Of a stretch of 64,000 nt of DNA, positions 5,819 through 63,956 are shown piece by piece; positions within the stretch are counted from its first letter, which is position 1, and each line of letters opens with the position of its first letter. Made by a program: the position numbers and the translations under genes. Under the pieces are notes generated by a model. The model did not search any database and had not been told where the DNA came from. It saw only the letters and a program-made list of their open reading frames with translations. This DNA comes from Owenia fusiformis (lineage: Eukaryota > Annelida > Polychaeta > Sabellida > Oweniidae), in contig CAIIXF020000003.1 of the NCBI GenBank assembly GCA_903813345.2, positions 31,557,151-31,621,150 of the forward strand. Direction: 5' to 3'.

Positions 5819-8164
5819 TTATGTATACTGCAGCTCAGTTCTTATAACATGTTCTAGCATTTGCATCATGCTCTGGCGTTTTCCAGTAGATGAAATATGT
5901 TTTGTTGTATGTATAGCATACTTTCCTCCAATGATATAGTCTTTGTTGATCGGTTCCATATCAGACTCCCATGATTTGTGATCGTTACATTGCACTTGAC
6001 TAGTGTACTCATATGCCTCAGAGTTGTGGTAGGACTGCCTCCTTTGATCATTATTGGCCAGTGTTCGTTTATTGACGGTGAGGTCCAGAGGGGAATCAAG
6101 GAGCCCATTTTCTGAATGAACCACGTTCGGACGCTCGTAGCCACTATATTTTGAATGATCTGATTGGTTGGCGGTATGCTGGGTGAATGCAACAAGTGGC
6201 GGAGGACCCTGGGCGTACTGAGGGTGGAATACGTTCAGGCACGATAAAGGTACAGGAGTGTACGGCGCTGTCCCTGAGTCAATCACTTCATTTTCGTTTC
6301 TGTGGGAAAATTGTACCGATGACTCCCTCGAGACTTCAGTTATTTTCAGCTCTTTATTGGAGACTGGCACTATATAATGAGCATCGTCTATGGCCGACTT
6401 TATTATTGCATTCTTAGCGGTATGTGAAGAAGACGACGTTTCTGAGGTCCTTGGAAATGAGCCCACCTGGTCGCTCTGGTTCGTAAAATTAGAAGGCGAA
6501 ACGGAGCCATTGTATTGATATTGAGGCTCTGTTAACCTTAAAAGGGGTCTAGTATATTCAACAATATGTACATCTCGTTGATCATCGTTGGAGTTTGCTA
6601 TATTGATGCAGCTTTGGTGTTTCAAGTCTTGCGAATAGCATGCAGGCGCATTGCTTAATTCAAAAGGAGATATCCCCATTGCATGTTGTGATGTCGTCGT
6701 CGTGCGATAGCTAGCCGGGCTCATTTTCATTGGTTCGACTTGATTTGCAGTGTCGGAATGGCTTTCGGTGTCAATATGTCTAGTAATTAATGATTCATGT
6801 TCTCTGTTAGACTCGTTACTGTCCGACTGGAATGACGTTGGTCGCTTCTTCAATGGATACTTCAGTCGATCGTTACCTCCATACTGCGTTAAGCTGCTGC
6901 GCTTGGCCTGATGTGGCCTGCAGTCGATATTATTATCTTGATTTGGTGCAATTCTAGTATCTATTGAGGTATGAGGCAAAGGCGAAAGCGATGGACTGTT
7001 GCGTAGAGGTCGACCCCTATACTCTTCCCTTTCGTCAACAATACCATTGTTTCTCTCGCTTGAATTCAACATTATCGTACTGTTGCTATGGTGTCCACCT
7101 CCTTCTCTGACCTTAGCATAATTCAAAGTTCTGTCAGTTGATGAATGCGTTTCATCAAATCGAACGCCGGCGTTTAACTGAGCTCTGGTTTCTTTATATG
7201 GGTCCACGGGTGTAGCGGTGTGTAAACTGTCTGGTAGACATTCACCTTTCAAAAGTATTTGTAGTGTTTTACCACAGCTACTTTGTGACTGGGTATCTCC
7301 ATAGCAAGACAAATGTTGCTTTTGCTCAGTTGCAGTGGATCCGGTCGCAAAATCGGGAACTGAATACCCGCGGTTAGCAATGGAATGATGTTGCCCAGAA
7401 TTATCAAATGGTGGACGGTCAATGTTTGAAACAATATAATTGCCCCCAGTTAAATACTGGACTCTTGAGTCGGGTGGTTCCGAATGTCTCCGAGGCGGCA
7501 ACCTAATCGAGGCGACAGCCTTTTCTGAAGTTTTCTGTTCTGGATGCGATTCGCTTCGATATAGTCCGGAACTATTCCTTCCAACCTTTTTGGAGGCCTC
7601 ACATGTCCTTAATGTCTGCTTTTGGAGGTGTTCGGCAGAGTCGTCCTTTACTTGCAGTGGCGTCCTGTCGGTTAATTTCTCTACAGGGTCTGTAACAAGG
7701 TGTGTCTTTTTATGGTCGCGTAATCCCGACGCGTATGAAAACTTTTTATTGCACTCCACACATTTGTACGGCTTCTCTCCCGTATGAGCTCGTTGATGAA
7801 TCCTCAAATTAGACGTGTTTGCAAACCTCCTGCCGCATTCTGGGCATGAGTATGGCTTTTCCCCGGTATGGACCCGAGTATGTTTCGTCAAGTCATATGA
7901 ATTTGCAAATGGCCTACTGCATATCAAGCATGGATAAGGTTTTTCGCCAGTGTGAGTCCTGACATGCCGCTTCAGGTCGGATGACTTGAGAAACCGTTTA
8001 GAACAATATGTACAGCAATGTGGTTTAAATCCACTGTGCACTTGAGAATGTCGTTTCAAGTCGGATTGGAAATTAAAATATTTGTGGCATATGCCACATC
8101 TGAGCGAGCGGTCTTCTACTACTGGTTTTTCAGGACTTAATTTCGATTCAACCATCGCATACAT
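5819..8164 (-). CDS. Five-finger C2H2 zinc-finger protein, putative CtBP-recruiting transcription factor
   Basis: An uninterrupted 781-codon frame. Five consecutive C2H2 fingers fill residues about 23-155 (C23/C26/H39/H43; C51/C54/H67/H71; C79/C82/H95/H99; then 107-127 and 135-155), with TGEKPY linkers after fingers 2, 3 and 4, typical of sequence-specific DNA binding. The remaining ~620 residues are low-complexity and polar (Ser, Asn, His, Gln rich) without a visible domain. SPLDLTVNK near residues 691-699 resembles the PxDLS-type motif by which repressors bind CtBP; that role is inferred. The protein should act in the nucleus. The chosen ATG follows a sequence resembling a splice acceptor (TTTAATTCAG, minus strand), so a 5' exon is likely and the true start could differ (a second Met is at residue 4). 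No KRAB, SCAN, BTB or SET domain is present. The subfamily is not identified. Confidence 0.9.
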   Translation of the reverse strand: MYAMVESKLSPEKPVVEDRSLRCGICHKYFNFQSDLKRHSQVHSGFKPHCCTYCSKRFLKSSDLKRHVRTHTGEKPYPCLICSRPFANSYDLTKHTRVHTGEKPYSCPECGRRFANTSNLRIHQRAHTGEKPYKCVECNKKFSYASGLRDHKKTHLVTDPVEKLTDRTPLQVKDDSAEHLQKQTLRTCEASKKVGRNSSGLYRSESHPEQKTSEKAVASIRLPPRRHSEPPDSRVQYLTGGNYIVSNIDRPPFDNSGQHHSIANRGYSVPDFATGSTATEQKQHLSCYGDTQSQSSCGKTLQILLKGECLPDSLHTATPVDPYKETRAQLNAGVRFDETHSSTDRTLNYAKVREGGGHHSNSTIMLNSSERNNGIVDEREEYRGRPLRNSPSLSPLPHTSIDTRIAPNQDNNIDCRPHQAKRSSLTQYGGNDRLKYPLKKRPTSFQSDSNESNREHESLITRHIDTESHSDTANQVEPMKMSPASYRTTTTSQHAMGISPFELSNAPACYSQDLKHQSCINIANSNDDQRDVHIVEYTRPLLRLTEPQYQYNGSVSPSNFTNQSDQVGSFPRTSETSSSSHTAKNAIIKSAIDDAHYIVPVSNKELKITEVSRESSVQFSHRNENEVIDSGTAPYTPVPLSCLNVFHPQYAQGPPPLVAFTQHTANQSDHSKYSGYERPNVVHSENGLLDSPLDLTVNKRTLANNDQRRQSYHNSEAYEYTSQVQCNDHKSWESDMEPINKDYIIGGKYAIHTTKHISSTGKRQSMMQMLEHVIRTELQYT

Positions 8165-43000: not shown

Positions 43001-46000
43001 CCCCAAAGCTTATATTGGTAGAAATTCTGATGTATCTTCTCCAATGTATTTATTTTATAATCTGCAAATCAAGGGTAGAATAGATGGTAAATATTGTATT
43101 ATGATTCTGTGGAGTTTCTGTAGTCTAGTTGAAATCATGAAGACATTTCAATCAAACATCTGTTCTTTGATTTGTTTCAAGAAAGTAATACTGGGAATAA
43201 GTGTTACAGTTACAGTTAAGTACAATGTAGTTTTATTTATCAATTTTGTCAATGTTTGATGTACAGGCAACTGACACCCATATGGGTATACATATAGCGT
43301 TTTCTGTACCCTGAATGATCGAAGGGAGTGAGGGGTTTGAAAGCTTTTGTGCCTAGCCCTAAGGGGTGTATTCGATGATATTACACCTGCTCTGGGGTCT
43401 ATATTATGATTCGAATATTCATTATGGTCTGCCATTACTACGACCGGCTGTTATGACGTCACACATTACTCATATTACCAAGGGTATTGCTCACGAATAT
43501 GCCCCGAGTGAAATGTTGACTTTGTTCACAGTTTTTAGAAGGCGTGAATACAGTCATGTTCAAATCACAGTTATTGCCCCAGTTATCATATAACTAAGAA
43601 TATAGTATACTAGGTAATTTATATTCACCACTAGTATAATAGAATGAAACAAAAGATAAATCATATTGGTTGACCGGCTAAGGTTCACTGGCGTGAACTT
43701 TTATTCTAATTTACATAAAATAGATGGCATGACGGCCATATGGACATACTGTATCTCAGGTAGGCACCTACCTGTAGGTACCTTTCTGAAGTCTTCAATC
43801 AAGAAGAAAAAGAATATATCAAGAATGTCGTATCTTATGAAAACAAAGTGTCATTGTAGAGCCTTATAAGTGTTAAATTCCATTGCATGGCTATTTGTCT
43901 ATAGCTACCTTGGGATAATTGGAATTAATTGAAATGCTAACTCTTAATGTAGTACACAAAAATGTATACATGTTGTTTTCATAAAACAACACTATATCTA
44001 CTATTGTATATAGACAATATCAGTCCATAGAAAATAAGCAATCCAGCTGCATATAAATTGAGCACAAAACCATCTTAGGGGCATGACGTTTGAACCCTCA
44101 GATGGAAAGCCGGGAGTTGTTGTTGGCATGGTGATTTTTTCAGAACTTGGTGCTGTTGTGTTAATAGAGCCCAGTGTTGTTGGCATGGTGATGTTTTCAG
44201 AACTTGGTGCTGTTGTGTTAATAGAGCCCAGTGTTGTTGGCATGGTGATGTTTTCAGAACTTGGTGCTGTTGTGTTAATAGAGCCCAGTGTTGTTGGCAT
44301 GGTGATGTTTTCAGAACTTGGTGCTGTTGTGTTAATAGAGCCCAGTGTTGTTGGCATGGTGATGTTTTCAGAACTTTGTGTTGTGATGCTTTCATTGTGA
44401 CAGGTATTGTTGTCAAATGTTCCATTAAACTGGTATGGTTTCTGGAATAAAGTAAACAATATAAAAATAAAAAAGATCATACAATCATACAAGTATCATA
44501 GAGATGGGAAGGACTAATAAGATAAGATAGGTAATGGAACAAAATATAAGAGGTCCAAAAGATGGATTATAATGTCACATCTTCATAGGTTATAGGAATT
44601 CTAATTCAAAATCACATTTATCAAATATTTTATTACAAGGGTTAATATCCCAAAACATGAAGTTTTTTGGTACTATCTTCTGTTAGCAGGTAAAAAACTT
44701 ACGAAATGGTCCCAAGATTGGATATGACAATAGAGAGCTTTTCCAGGGCAAGTTGTATAGTAAGGTCTGCGTGCTTGTCTGTGTCCAATAAGGCTATAGT
44801 TGCTCAATATACGACTACTGTAATGTTAAACAATATAACATTATTAGAATGTCTGAAAGTAGTCTTTGTAAGCATGTTGATCAGATACAGATTGGTGTAC
44901 AACATTAAATGATGCTCATTGCATAATTACTCTAATATTAAACAATATGATGTTTTAGGCCTATATAAGATGGCACTAGTATAGTTCATATGATAATATT
45001 CTTTACATGTAAACCTGTGGTTGCATTACCATCTTTTTGCGAACATTCTTTTTATTGCCTAAAGTATATGATGTAAAATTATTAATCTAAGTAGCTTAGT
45101 GTTGTATATGTTGGCATGTTGTAAGATACAGGTATATCTTACAATATTAAAGTTTTGTGTTTTACAATATTTTGCAAAGTGTTAATGACAATAGACCTTT
45201 AAATTGTAATATTCTATATATGTAGCTATTAAGTAATGAAATATAGTTGTTGAATTCAAGTTTTTCTAGCTATGTCCCTGTCAATATTTTAATGTTCTGC
45301 CCCTCTGCATTTTTGAGTTGATCCCTTTTAAAAACTGATGTTTGCTCACAATACTTACTATACAATAACCACCTCCTCAAAACATGATAAATGGTGTTTA
45401 TGGGTGCAAAGATTTTGTTTCACTACAAGTGCATCTAAGTCAATGATGATTAGTTCACCTCTACTTACACATACAAGACATGTACTTGTATAAAGTATAA
45501 AAGAAATACATGTATACATATACATGTAAAAAGACATAAGAAAGGTAAGAAAACACATATAACACACAATCTTACTTATTGATTCCACACTCGACCAAAC
45601 TGTTGAATGCATCAAGAGCCATCTGGTTGGGAAGTAGGTTACTAAAGTCTCCCATTATACTAATACCTACAGAAATGAATATATCAGCCTTATTATACAC
45701 ATCATCAGTAACTTGATTAATGCGATGGTTACACTTATGGTTTATTTAGAGGAGGGAAAACCCCAGAGCTTAGAGATGACAGACATAATTGTGTATCTTG
45801 CTTACCACCTTCGTGGGCTAGTTTCCGAATACCACCCATAATCGTTATGTTTTAATCTATGTTAACATATTCCTTACATCTTTCTTTATCTTGATGTGAA
45901 ATAACAAGCTATGATATTGGTTCAACTCGCCAGAAATTAGCATGAAATTATTCCAAGCGTTTTTTGAAAGTTTTGAACCCACCATTGAAATACGTCATTT

Positions 46001-60654: not shown

Positions 60655-61215
60655 TATAAGTTATTCAATGATTCGAGTGAAATACAGAAAATATTCTTCC
60701 CGAGAAGGTCGTATTTCACGATGCGCTAGCAGAGTGAAATACAGACGTTCAAGGGAAGAATATTTTCTGTATTTCACGAGAAATCATTGAATAACGTTTT
60801 TATTCCATGATTACTCAGATAAAACTCCCCTAAATCAAGTCCAAAAATATTTTACATCGATATTCCTTCAAAATCTTTTTGGCTTTGTTGTTTTGCTTTT
60901 ATTGTATTATACGATACGTTTGATTTTCTTCAACATTTTTCTTCAATTTCATCAGCTGGAACAGTGTAACGAAACGTTTTTTTCGACTTTCGAATATTAG
61001 CATGCGTTGGTGTAAACAGATCGCCATTGATTTTTTTAGTAATAGTCATATCCTGGATGGAAATCTGGGGCGTTGGGATACTGGACCGTATCCCAACGCT
61101 GACGTCATTTTCACTCTGTATTCAATGCTAAGTGGAAAGTGCGTGTAAATACAGGATATATTTAAGTCACATGGACCAATCAGATTGCAGGGAATTTCAC
61201 CATCATGGAATAATA
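60655..61215. mobile_element. Foldback element with perfect hairpin at its left end
   Basis: 60661-60796 folds into a long hairpin (TTATTCAATGATT...AATCATTGAATAA; GTGAAATACAGAAAATATTC and its inverse). A second inverted pair, TTATTCCATGAT near 60800 and ATCATGGAATAA near 61202, bounds a further ~400 bp, so the element may be compound. In the last WDR59 intron within the window. Confidence 0.7.
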
Positions 61216-62170: not shown

Positions 62171-63457
62171 TTATGTATTCACTTTGAAGACATAAAGAAT
62201 ATTCTTCCTACCATCTTTAGCATCATGATTTTCCCCTACCAGGATGTTCCCAGTGCTGTCTACTAGTATCTCAGCAGGAGCATGCAAGCCATGCTGCTGC
62301 TTTGTTAATAGAACCTTGATGAAGTCACCCTTGTGATTGAGCAGCAATACTCTATGGTTGTCAGTATCGATCAGCAGAATATGCTTCTCAGTCACAAAGA
62401 CACCCTTGGGATCCTTCAACTTGTCATCCCCCTGTCCCTTATATTTGAATACTGGAGTGCCATCCCTGTTGAGACAATGCACAATGTTGGCCCTTCTATC
62501 AGACACCAATAATTCAAGATTATAAGGATTGATGAAAACTCTATACAAGTTTTTGAATTCATCATTGGTGATAGTGTGTGTCACCTGACCTGAAGATGTG
62601 AACAGATTTATACTACAAGGATTATACCCAGTCACCACCAGCCCCAGTTGGTGATTGTAGGCTAGGCCAAATGGACAATTCACCTGTTGACATATATCTT
62701 CCTTATACTGACCATTACTGTCAAACAGTTTTACACAGTTGTTCCTCCATGATGTAACTATGAATTCCCCAGTTTGGAGACATACACCATTTTCAGGTTT
62801 ATCAACTGTGAACTTCAGTTTGATAGTAAAGTCTTTATTGTATACCTCAATACCCTGCTCATATATGATAACAGCTACCTCTCCATAAGGAGTGAAACAC
62901 ATACCATAGCAGGCTTTTGGTAACTCAATCGTTTGTTTTAGAGTAAGACTACATTGAGATAAGTCTAGGCTGTTGATGATTGGATTTACTTGATTATCTC
63001 TGAAACCAAGATCTGATCTTAACTGAGCACATAAAGCTTCGACTTTTGTGATAGATGAATGTGCAATTGATTGCTCTTCTGCCTTTAAGCTCTTCAAATT
63101 AGCTGTTTTCATACTAGCTATTTGCAAGTTATTTGTTGCTATGGTAATAGATTGAAAAGGTAGCATAGTTTCAAGTTGAGAAGCCAAATGTTCATAATTT
63201 TCTTCTTTTAGTGCAGTCACAAAAACATCAAATGCCTTAACATTACATGTCTCAAGAGTGTCTAGAAATTCCCTACACTTTTTGGTAGGTGTAGTTTTTG
63301 CCAGTATTTTGTCTTGTACAGCTTTATTTATGACCCCCTCCTGTCTACATTTTCCCATTATGTGCTCCACATCAAGGCACTTCTCAAGTTCCACCCGGCA
63401 AGCCTTAAGGGTTGCTATATGGGCCTCAGACAGCGATGTGGAATGTTGTTGGGCCAT
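62171..63457 (-). CDS. CARD-NHL protein: N-terminal death-fold CARD fused to NHL-type beta-propeller
   Basis: Uninterrupted 428-codon frame. Residues about 10-96 fit a caspase-recruitment domain of the RAIDD/caspase-2 kind: LKACRVELEKCLDVEHIMG, RQEGVI, ILAKTTPTKKCREFLDTL and AFDVFVTALKEE follow the six-helix pattern and its conserved spots. Residues ~97-170 are a helical linker. From about 178 to the end are NHL-like blades (ACYGMCFTPYGEVAV, ENGVCLQTGEFIVTS, CPFGLAYNHQLGLVV, PKGVFVTEKHILLIDTDNHR, APAEILVDSTGNILV). There is no RING, B-box or caspase domain. The CARD would recruit another CARD protein; the propeller would bind a ligand or RNA. Both roles are inferred from family. The frame is intronless, though a minus-strand acceptor-like sequence (ATCACAG) about 20 bases upstream of the ATG allows a 5' UTR exon. 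It lies antisense to WDR59, between exons if WDR59 continues past the window. Confidence 0.88.
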   Translation of the reverse strand: MAQQHSTSLSEAHIATLKACRVELEKCLDVEHIMGKCRQEGVINKAVQDKILAKTTPTKKCREFLDTLETCNVKAFDVFVTALKEENYEHLASQLETMLPFQSITIATNNLQIASMKTANLKSLKAEEQSIAHSSITKVEALCAQLRSDLGFRDNQVNPIINSLDLSQCSLTLKQTIELPKACYGMCFTPYGEVAVIIYEQGIEVYNKDFTIKLKFTVDKPENGVCLQTGEFIVTSWRNNCVKLFDSNGQYKEDICQQVNCPFGLAYNHQLGLVVTGYNPCSINLFTSSGQVTHTITNDEFKNLYRVFINPYNLELLVSDRRANIVHCLNRDGTPVFKYKGQGDDKLKDPKGVFVTEKHILLIDTDNHRVLLLNHKGDFIKVLLTKQQHGLHAPAEILVDSTGNILVGENHDAKDGRKNILYVFKVNT

Positions 63458-63561
63458 ATTGACACTTTCCCTGTGATGGTAGATTAAATAATATATTAAC
63501 TAGATTGATATATATTTTTACTGTCTTTGATAATTCAAATACTAGTAGACTGATTTGATAC

Positions 63562-63956
63562 AAAGGACGATTCTCGGTTTGGAGAACGAAGTTCATCAAT
63601 CTAAATGAGCATTATCCCTGCTTCGGACAAATTTGATTTTTTTACATAATATAGATTTGAATGTCTTCTTTTGAATAGTCATAATTTAATTTGGGTAATA
63701 TTTCTAGATTTTTCGAAAAAAAATATTAGCGCAGTACACTGATGAACTTCTTTCCCCCAAATCGAGACTTGTATTTTATTGAATCCGTCTTATTGAGCAT
63801 TATCCCTGCTTCAGACCAATTTGTTATTTTTACATCTTGTAGATTTAAAGGTCCTCTTTTGAATATTCATAGTTTAATTTGGGTAATATTTCTATATTTT
63901 TCATGAAAAAAATTATTAGCCCAGGAGACTGTTCTCCAAACCGAGAATCGTCCTTT
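63562..63956. mobile_element. 395-bp MITE with 26-bp perfect inverted ends and internal tandem duplication
   Basis: AAAGGACGATTCTCGGTTTG at 63562 (continuing to 63587) is exactly inverted at 63931-63956. Inside, about 125 bp starting GAGCATTATCCCTGCTTC occurs twice in direct order (about 63606 and 63796). It sits about 100 bases upstream of the CARD-NHL start codon. Target duplication not evident. Confidence 0.85.

Follow-up and report, generated by a model that had tools for sequence, protein, structure and literature searches.

We found that a gene on the minus strand of the window (the whole 64,000-nucleotide stretch of Owenia fusiformis DNA analyzed here) joins a CARD directly to an NHL beta-propeller and that it belongs to an expanded family of such genes in the same genome. 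On balance, we lean toward the view that the product of this gene works inside the cell as a recognition protein whose propeller binds a ligand and whose CARD recruits a caspase-type partner, a reading that draws on change in the top face of the propeller in a clustered trio of relatives, in one group of the second branch of the family (branch B), and in the TRIM-NHL relatives.

A CARD and an NHL propeller in one reading frame

The gene (locus L001; 62171..63457, minus strand) is a complete open frame of 428 amino acids from ATG to stop. Its CARD (residues 16 to 96; 63170..63412, minus strand) matches Pfam PF00619 with an E value of 6e-15 and a score of 55.5 bits, above the curated cut-off of 23.9, and scores 59.1 bits in a CARD search of the whole genome. 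The NHL propeller occupies residues from about 171 to 428 (62174..62947, minus strand), as placed by phmmer, a family profile, Pfam, and six blades assigned by motif and by eye. By phmmer, residues 224 to 409 match the solved TRIM2 NHL propeller (E = 1.9e-24), and the family profile matches the TRIM3 NHL with an E value of 1.1e-40. The Pfam NHL match, at 20.3 bits, is barely above the cut-off of 20, so the blades of this propeller are divergent. The linker between the two domains (residues about 97 to 165; 62963..63169, minus strand) appears to be partly helical, as judged from a low-confidence model (pLDDT below 50 there) and the family alignment. A sequence-only reading of this DNA had placed a CARD in the N-terminal ~96 residues and NHL-like blades over the last ~250, joined without RING or B-box, and all three claims held at the sequence level. 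A Pfam scan of the 428-amino-acid frame found no RING, B-box, NB-ARC ATPase, NACHT, helicase, or LRR. Most probably, no module precedes the CARD in this gene.

Among solved structures searched with phmmer, the RAIDD CARD matches the window protein weakly (E = 0.004). A CARD profile built from 11 family members matches the solved CARDs of procaspase-9 (2e-10), RAIDD (2e-10), and Apaf-1 (5e-9), with weaker matches to BCL10 (4e-7) and CED-3 (2e-5), and the family CARD therefore appears nearest, by profile, to the first three. When AlphaFold was given the CARD alone as a single sequence (pLDDT 66.9), six helices (residues 11 to 27, 30 to 40, 45 to 53, 59 to 69, 73 to 85, and 88 to 98) followed one another in CARD order, as the six-helix death fold expected in the sequence-only reading would have it; in a Foldseek search of the PDB, however, this model resembled no solved structure, with none of 16 matches at an E value of 0.001 or less and all at chance level. 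The full-length model has a mean pLDDT of 42.6, too poor for a fold search. The CARD and NHL folds of the window protein are thus predicted from sequence profiles, and the single-sequence models do not confirm them.

Other frames of the window were scanned with Pfam for 61 of the 82 that reach 75 amino acids. The window also contains a 781-amino-acid frame with N-terminal C2H2 zinc fingers (5819-8164, minus strand) and a 163-amino-acid frame (44001-44492, minus strand) whose repeated unit is rich in Ser and Thr and looks mucin-like.

An expanded family of CARD-NHL genes

A CARD search of the 498-Mb genome gave 38 matches (43 of 43 candidates scored), and a search with the window protein gave at least 104 (98 of 264 candidates scored). 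From reading individual loci, we count at least 16 CARD-NHL loci. Both domains lie in one open frame at 12 of the 16 (the window gene, L002 to L006, and L020 to L025), and a chance pairing of CARD and NHL is therefore no concern. The CARD is above the Pfam cut-off in all 12 of these members and the NHL in 11, L025 falling just below it (19.0 bits against 20). The remaining four loci are split or truncated (L007 with L009, L013, L017, and L019); L017 consists of two frames 197 nt apart, where an intron is possible, and the broken members of the family are L007, L008, L013, and L019. Half of the loci (8 of 16) are on C3, among them a same-strand cluster of CARD-CARD-NHL genes spanning ~50 kb (L004 to L006; C3:16.970-17.023 Mb), and L019 also has two CARDs. 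The window gene and L002 are 77% identical. No relative of the window protein was found among viral and prokaryotic contig collections, a result that says nothing on other animals.

The CARD-NHL loci hold 20 of the 38 CARD matches, and the remaining 18 lie in other genes or exons. At L016 (positions 315-1535; C8:31.0025 Mb), a CARD and a Ras-like GTPase share one 408-amino-acid frame, an unusual pairing, with a coiled-coil-like stretch between them by eye. At L029 (positions 385-2151; C5:40.019 Mb), a CARD is followed in one frame by leucine-rich repeats, with no NACHT match.

Gene structure upstream of the coding frame

The best acceptor-like site upstream of the ATG ends in CAG or TAG in 14 of 15 family members, and these putative acceptors sit 1 to 36 nt ahead of the ATG. 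That of the window gene (63471..63485, minus strand), identified from the family acceptor scores, lies 13 nt before the ATG and would end a presumed 5' UTR intron. The family scores have a median of 1.7, compared to -0.6 for sites preceding other ATGs of the window (P = 1.4e-4 with all 15 genes and 9e-4 with the 10 less related ones), and they are below zero in L012, L024, and L025; this test used 15 of the 16 loci (L013 was left out), and 9 of 17 TRIM frames served as its control. From these sites, it is likely that the region upstream of the ATG contains an intron in the 5' UTR or is trans-spliced. The single exon described in the sequence-only reading holds for the coding part, and a 5' non-coding exon probably precedes it.

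The same acceptor would also be expected if a longer TRIM-like gene, with RING and B-box exons upstream, ended in this frame, and in L001, L002, and L003 the frame does stay open from the putative acceptor onward. We give this explanation hardly any weight. The acceptor-to-ATG distances (13, 11, 18, 23, 6, 1, 3 nt, etc.) differ modulo 3 among paralogues and so keep no constant phase, which makes a shared upstream coding exon unlikely. The sequence-only reading had named upstream RING or B-box exons as evidence that would count against it, and none came to light: 0 of 41 minus-strand frames of at least 38 amino acids in the upstream 9.4 kb match Pfam at an E value of 0.01 (shorter exons being undetectable), and among the best 150 of 285 B-box candidates none lies on C3 beyond 30.30 Mb or within 1.3 Mb of the window gene on its contig. 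In addition, the TRIM-NHL-type frames of this genome that served as a control keep these domains in the frame that encodes the NHL (NHL in 17 of 17, B-box in 15, and RING in 13), with L034 and L040 lacking a B-box in the portion scanned. Single-frame TRIM-NHL genes are numerous in this genome (L034 to L050), and 600 to 700 amino acids is a common length among them.

The window gene and L002 are alignable from 38 nt upstream of the ATG through the stop and hardly further. Directly upstream of the gene, ~105 nt from its ATG, a repeat search found a MITE-like element with 26-nt perfect terminal inverted repeats (63562..63956, no strand assigned). At least 40 near-full-length copies of it, including itself, are 97 to 100% identical (best 40 of 1726 candidates), and by this identity the element appears to be a young insertion. 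At 60672-60782 there is an imperfect 39-nt inverted repeat of the hairpin type (87%, arms 33 nt apart).

Origin of the family

In a tree of 33 NHL rows, the branch that contains the window gene (branch A, 7 rows) is one firm group with support of 100/100. A split with support of 97/94 sets the 17 sampled TRIM-NHL-type rows apart from both branches, A and B, and from L011, which has no CARD; since L011 falls alongside branch B, the latter is not a firm single group. The tree included 17 NHL-bearing frames from the genome matches (98 of 264 candidates scored) and left out the broken fragment L008. L011 (C4:15.715-15.722 Mb), whose propeller adjoins branch B, is a frame of 1817 amino acids with two NHL regions and no CARD in the 1130 amino acids scanned.

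In the CARD tree, which left out the duplicate loci L010, L012, and L015 and matches above an E value of 1e-3, the 20 CARDs of CARD-NHL loci cluster. A single clade of these short sequences is not rejected (p-AU 0.44) and appears in only 23% of bootstrap trees, so a single origin of CARD-NHL is allowed by the sequences. The doubled CARDs of L004 to L006 fall inside branch A, and the L019 pair comes together in branch B, a pattern suggesting that the CARD doubled on two separate occasions, with moderate support (88/68 and 96/66).

The sequence-only reading had offered retrocopying or domain capture as the origin of the single-exon form. Retrocopying is unlikely, since 12 of the 16 loci are single-frame and the family shares a putative upstream acceptor; duplication at the DNA level would fit the presence of eight loci on one chromosome, three as a same-strand cluster. 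Capture of a domain is plausible, as the NHL of this family is related to the propellers of the TRIM-NHL genes in this genome; because the sampled TRIM-NHL-type frames stand apart in the tree (97/94), descent directly from a TRIM gene is not established.

Selection on the window gene and change on the propeller top face

Between the window gene and L002, dS is 0.41 and dN is 0.13, giving a dN/dS of 0.32 (0.23 for the CARD and 0.38 for the NHL), and the window gene is thus under purifying selection. These values and the intact frame, together with the acceptor that the family has upstream of the ATG, argue strongly against a functionless retrocopy or pseudogene, which would account for the one coding exon and the broken state of L007, L008, L013, and L019 and which we consider very improbable. 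The CARD has a lower dN/dS than the NHL in five of the six pairs with computable CARD dS. The exception is L001-L003 (CARD 0.21, NHL 0.10), at a dS near 2 to 3, and CARD dS is saturated in two pairs.

In an NHL propeller, the top face is made up of the DA and BC loops. We labeled propeller positions by motif as top loops (DA, BC), bottom loops (AB, CD), or strands; since the blades were labeled by eye with the variation already in view, the control consisted of sliding the labels along the sequence (246 shifts). Between L004 and L005, 25 of 68 top positions differ, against 1 of 36 in bottom loops and 13 of 140 in strands (P = 2.2e-7), and no shift matched this top-face excess; for the three pairs of the L004-to-L006 trio, 1 of 246 shifts did so. 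The top-face count left out L007 and a 15-residue stretch of L006, which the sliding-label control kept; this stretch is locally shifted in blade 1 of L006. For the six pairs among L022, L023, L024, and L017, none of the 246 shifts was as high. In the sampled TRIM-NHL pairs, amino acid differences also concentrate in the propeller top-face loops, and 1 of 246 shifts reached the excess observed in five separate pairs. The signal for the window gene itself is weak: compared to L002, it differs at 25 of 71 top positions and at 36 of 176 others (P = 0.013; 12 of 246 shifts as high), and the excess relative to L003 is not significant (P = 0.071). L022-L023 alone gave a P value of 0.10 (19 of 246 shifts as high), and L020-L021 showed no excess and a reverse trend (225 of 246 shifts as high).

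When substitutions were separated by type, dN/dS in the trio was 1.08 to 1.44 on the top face and 0.35 to 0.75 elsewhere. The ratio of nonsynonymous to synonymous changes, top versus rest, gave a P value of 0.0074 for L004-L006, 0.15 for L004-L005, and 0.063 for L005-L006; the last two are not significant alone, and the trio pairs are not independent. Summed over the five TRIM-NHL pairs, dN/dS was 0.74 on the top face versus 0.32 for the rest (P = 4e-7), and the TRIM pair L048-L049 had equal values (0.26 and 0.28). For the window gene and L002, top-face dN/dS (0.42, compared to 0.36 for the rest) is not above 1. In none of the sets compared was top-face dN significantly above dS, and given this and the nonsignificant contrasts for L004-L005 and L005-L006, relaxed constraint could explain part of the pattern.

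The two halves of the clustered genes also differ in age. The synonymous difference per site between L004 and L005 is 0.80 to 0.93 over the first 80 codons and 0.00 to 0.18 over the propeller, an old CARD half joined to a young NHL half, which fits gene conversion or module exchange. L005 and L006 have a young first CARD in common (0.19 to 0.30), with older stretches between (up to 0.83).

These patterns bear on two other functions for the window protein. It could act, in the manner of Brat, LIN-41, and other TRIM-NHL proteins, as a scaffold or as a post-transcriptional regulator; its NHL would then bind cellular RNA or protein, and its CARD would merely oligomerize the protein in place of RBCC and have no immune or death role. 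The homology of its NHL to the TRIM2/3/71 and Brat propellers and the constraint on the window propeller (dN/dS 0.38) are consistent with such a role, and such NHLs bind RNA via the top face (PMC9070667). A developmental regulator would not usually come with at least 16 loci, some of them broken, with mosaic genes in a cluster, and with change concentrated on the top face, and the CARD is nearest those of caspase-9, RAIDD, and Apaf-1, so that we regard this role as unlikely. A damping role seems improbable as well: as a regulator or decoy, the CARD would compete for caspase or adaptor CARDs and reduce death signaling in the way that CARD-only inhibitors do. Short CARD proteins can be inhibitors, and the many CARD copies in the genome, in a protein without an effector domain, agree with this; however, a pure decoy needs no conserved propeller, least of all one that is diversifying in relatives.

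Discussion

Recognition of a ligand by the propeller and recruitment through the CARD is the reading we prefer. The top face of the propeller would bind a ligand, either RNA or protein and possibly a non-self or stress signal, and this binding would cluster or free the CARD. By analogy with known CARD biology, we infer that the CARD would then nucleate a helical CARD-CARD assembly and recruit a caspase-9/CED-3-like or BCL10/RAIDD-like partner, with caspase activation or an inflammatory signal as the outcome. The sensor or scaffold role suggested in the sequence-only reading gains from relatives that vary on the presumed ligand face and from CARDs that are mostly more constrained; for the window gene, with its own weak signal, this role is extended from those relatives.

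With regard to the ligand, net charge across 33 NHL regions ranges from -16 to +4, and of the 15 CARD-NHL propellers counted, 12 carry no net positive charge, so RNA is not favored over protein. Charge lends no support to RNA binding, as the CARD-NHL propellers mostly lack the positive charge of RNA-binding NHLs; in published NHL structures, RNA sits on a positively charged top surface (PMC9070667). The NHL-like part of TRIM56 is reported to bind viral RNA (PMC6623546). For human TRIM-NHLs, one study (PMC9634614) describes the top opening as diverse and a mutation hotspot, and it states that the parts of the loops that differ in shape make no direct RNA contact.

A possible candidate partner is encoded on C1, where a partial CARD exon lies ~0.7 kb ahead of a caspase domain (C1:37747083-37747211 and 37747871). 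The genome also gave nine NB-ARC matches, all on contigs other than C3. None of the nine is near a CARD match, and no classical CARD-bearing Apaf-1 turned up; exons were matched singly, so this absence is unproven.

Several known systems share parts of this architecture. The TRIM-NHL proteins (TRIM2/3/71, Brat, LIN-41; TRIM subfamily C) have a C-terminal NHL propeller with a variable top face and, in this genome, are also encoded in one frame. In contrast, the window gene has an N-terminal CARD in place of RING and B-box, and the 17 sampled frames lie across a supported branch from its family. CARD-NHL could thus be viewed as a TRIM-NHL with the ubiquitin-ligase module swapped for a CARD. Malin/NHLRC1, a RING-NHL protein, is likewise an NHL protein missing part of the TRIM module (PMC3503706); unlike CARD-NHL, it keeps the RING and has no CARD. 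Apaf-1/CED-4 resembles the family in its N-terminal CARD, and Apaf-1 has C-terminal beta-propellers too. CARD-NHL is far shorter, lacks the NB-ARC ATPase, and has an NHL rather than WD40 propellers, and it might work like Apaf-1 (CARD plus propellers) minus that ATPase. Procaspase-9 and RAIDD/CRADD have the closest solved CARDs by family profile, but their CARDs lead to a caspase or death domain and no propeller is present. RIG-I-like receptors, NOD1/NOD2, and CARD-NLRs combine one or two CARDs with a recognition module, a likeness that extends to the tandem CARDs of L004 to L006 and L019, whereas the window protein is without helicase, NACHT, or LRR.

A further, tentative proposal is that the CARD-NHL proteins are lineage-expanded cytosolic non-self receptors, in which a rapidly diversifying NHL face, gene-converted among clustered genes whose CARDs evolve separately, would feed a caspase-9-type CARD platform. 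If true, they would stand beside NLRs and RLRs as a receptor class of their own, assembled from the recognition parts of TRIM-NHL proteins.

The domains and the sort of signaling are known. We could not find the CARD-NHL architecture or its expansion described in the open-licence PubMed Central literature, a scope that does not extend to InterPro or UniProt deposition, and the term NHL is absent from the accessible parts of immune surveys of amphioxus (PMC2575513) and oyster (PMC4346834). Our analysis suggests that the CARD-NHL genes encode a family of sensors, so far little described, through which recognition of a molecule may lead to cell death or immune signaling.

The NHL propeller has chiefly been described in ubiquitin ligases and in the regulation of RNA. 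If our reading is right, this animal employs it as the recognition head of a CARD signaling receptor, a class into which over half of the CARD matches found in the genome would fall. CARD-NHL would then be a new receptor architecture beside NLR, RLR, and Apaf-1, with the top-face loops as the place to seek the ligand, and the cluster on C3, with CARD and NHL halves of different ages, would be a natural experiment in receptor module exchange.
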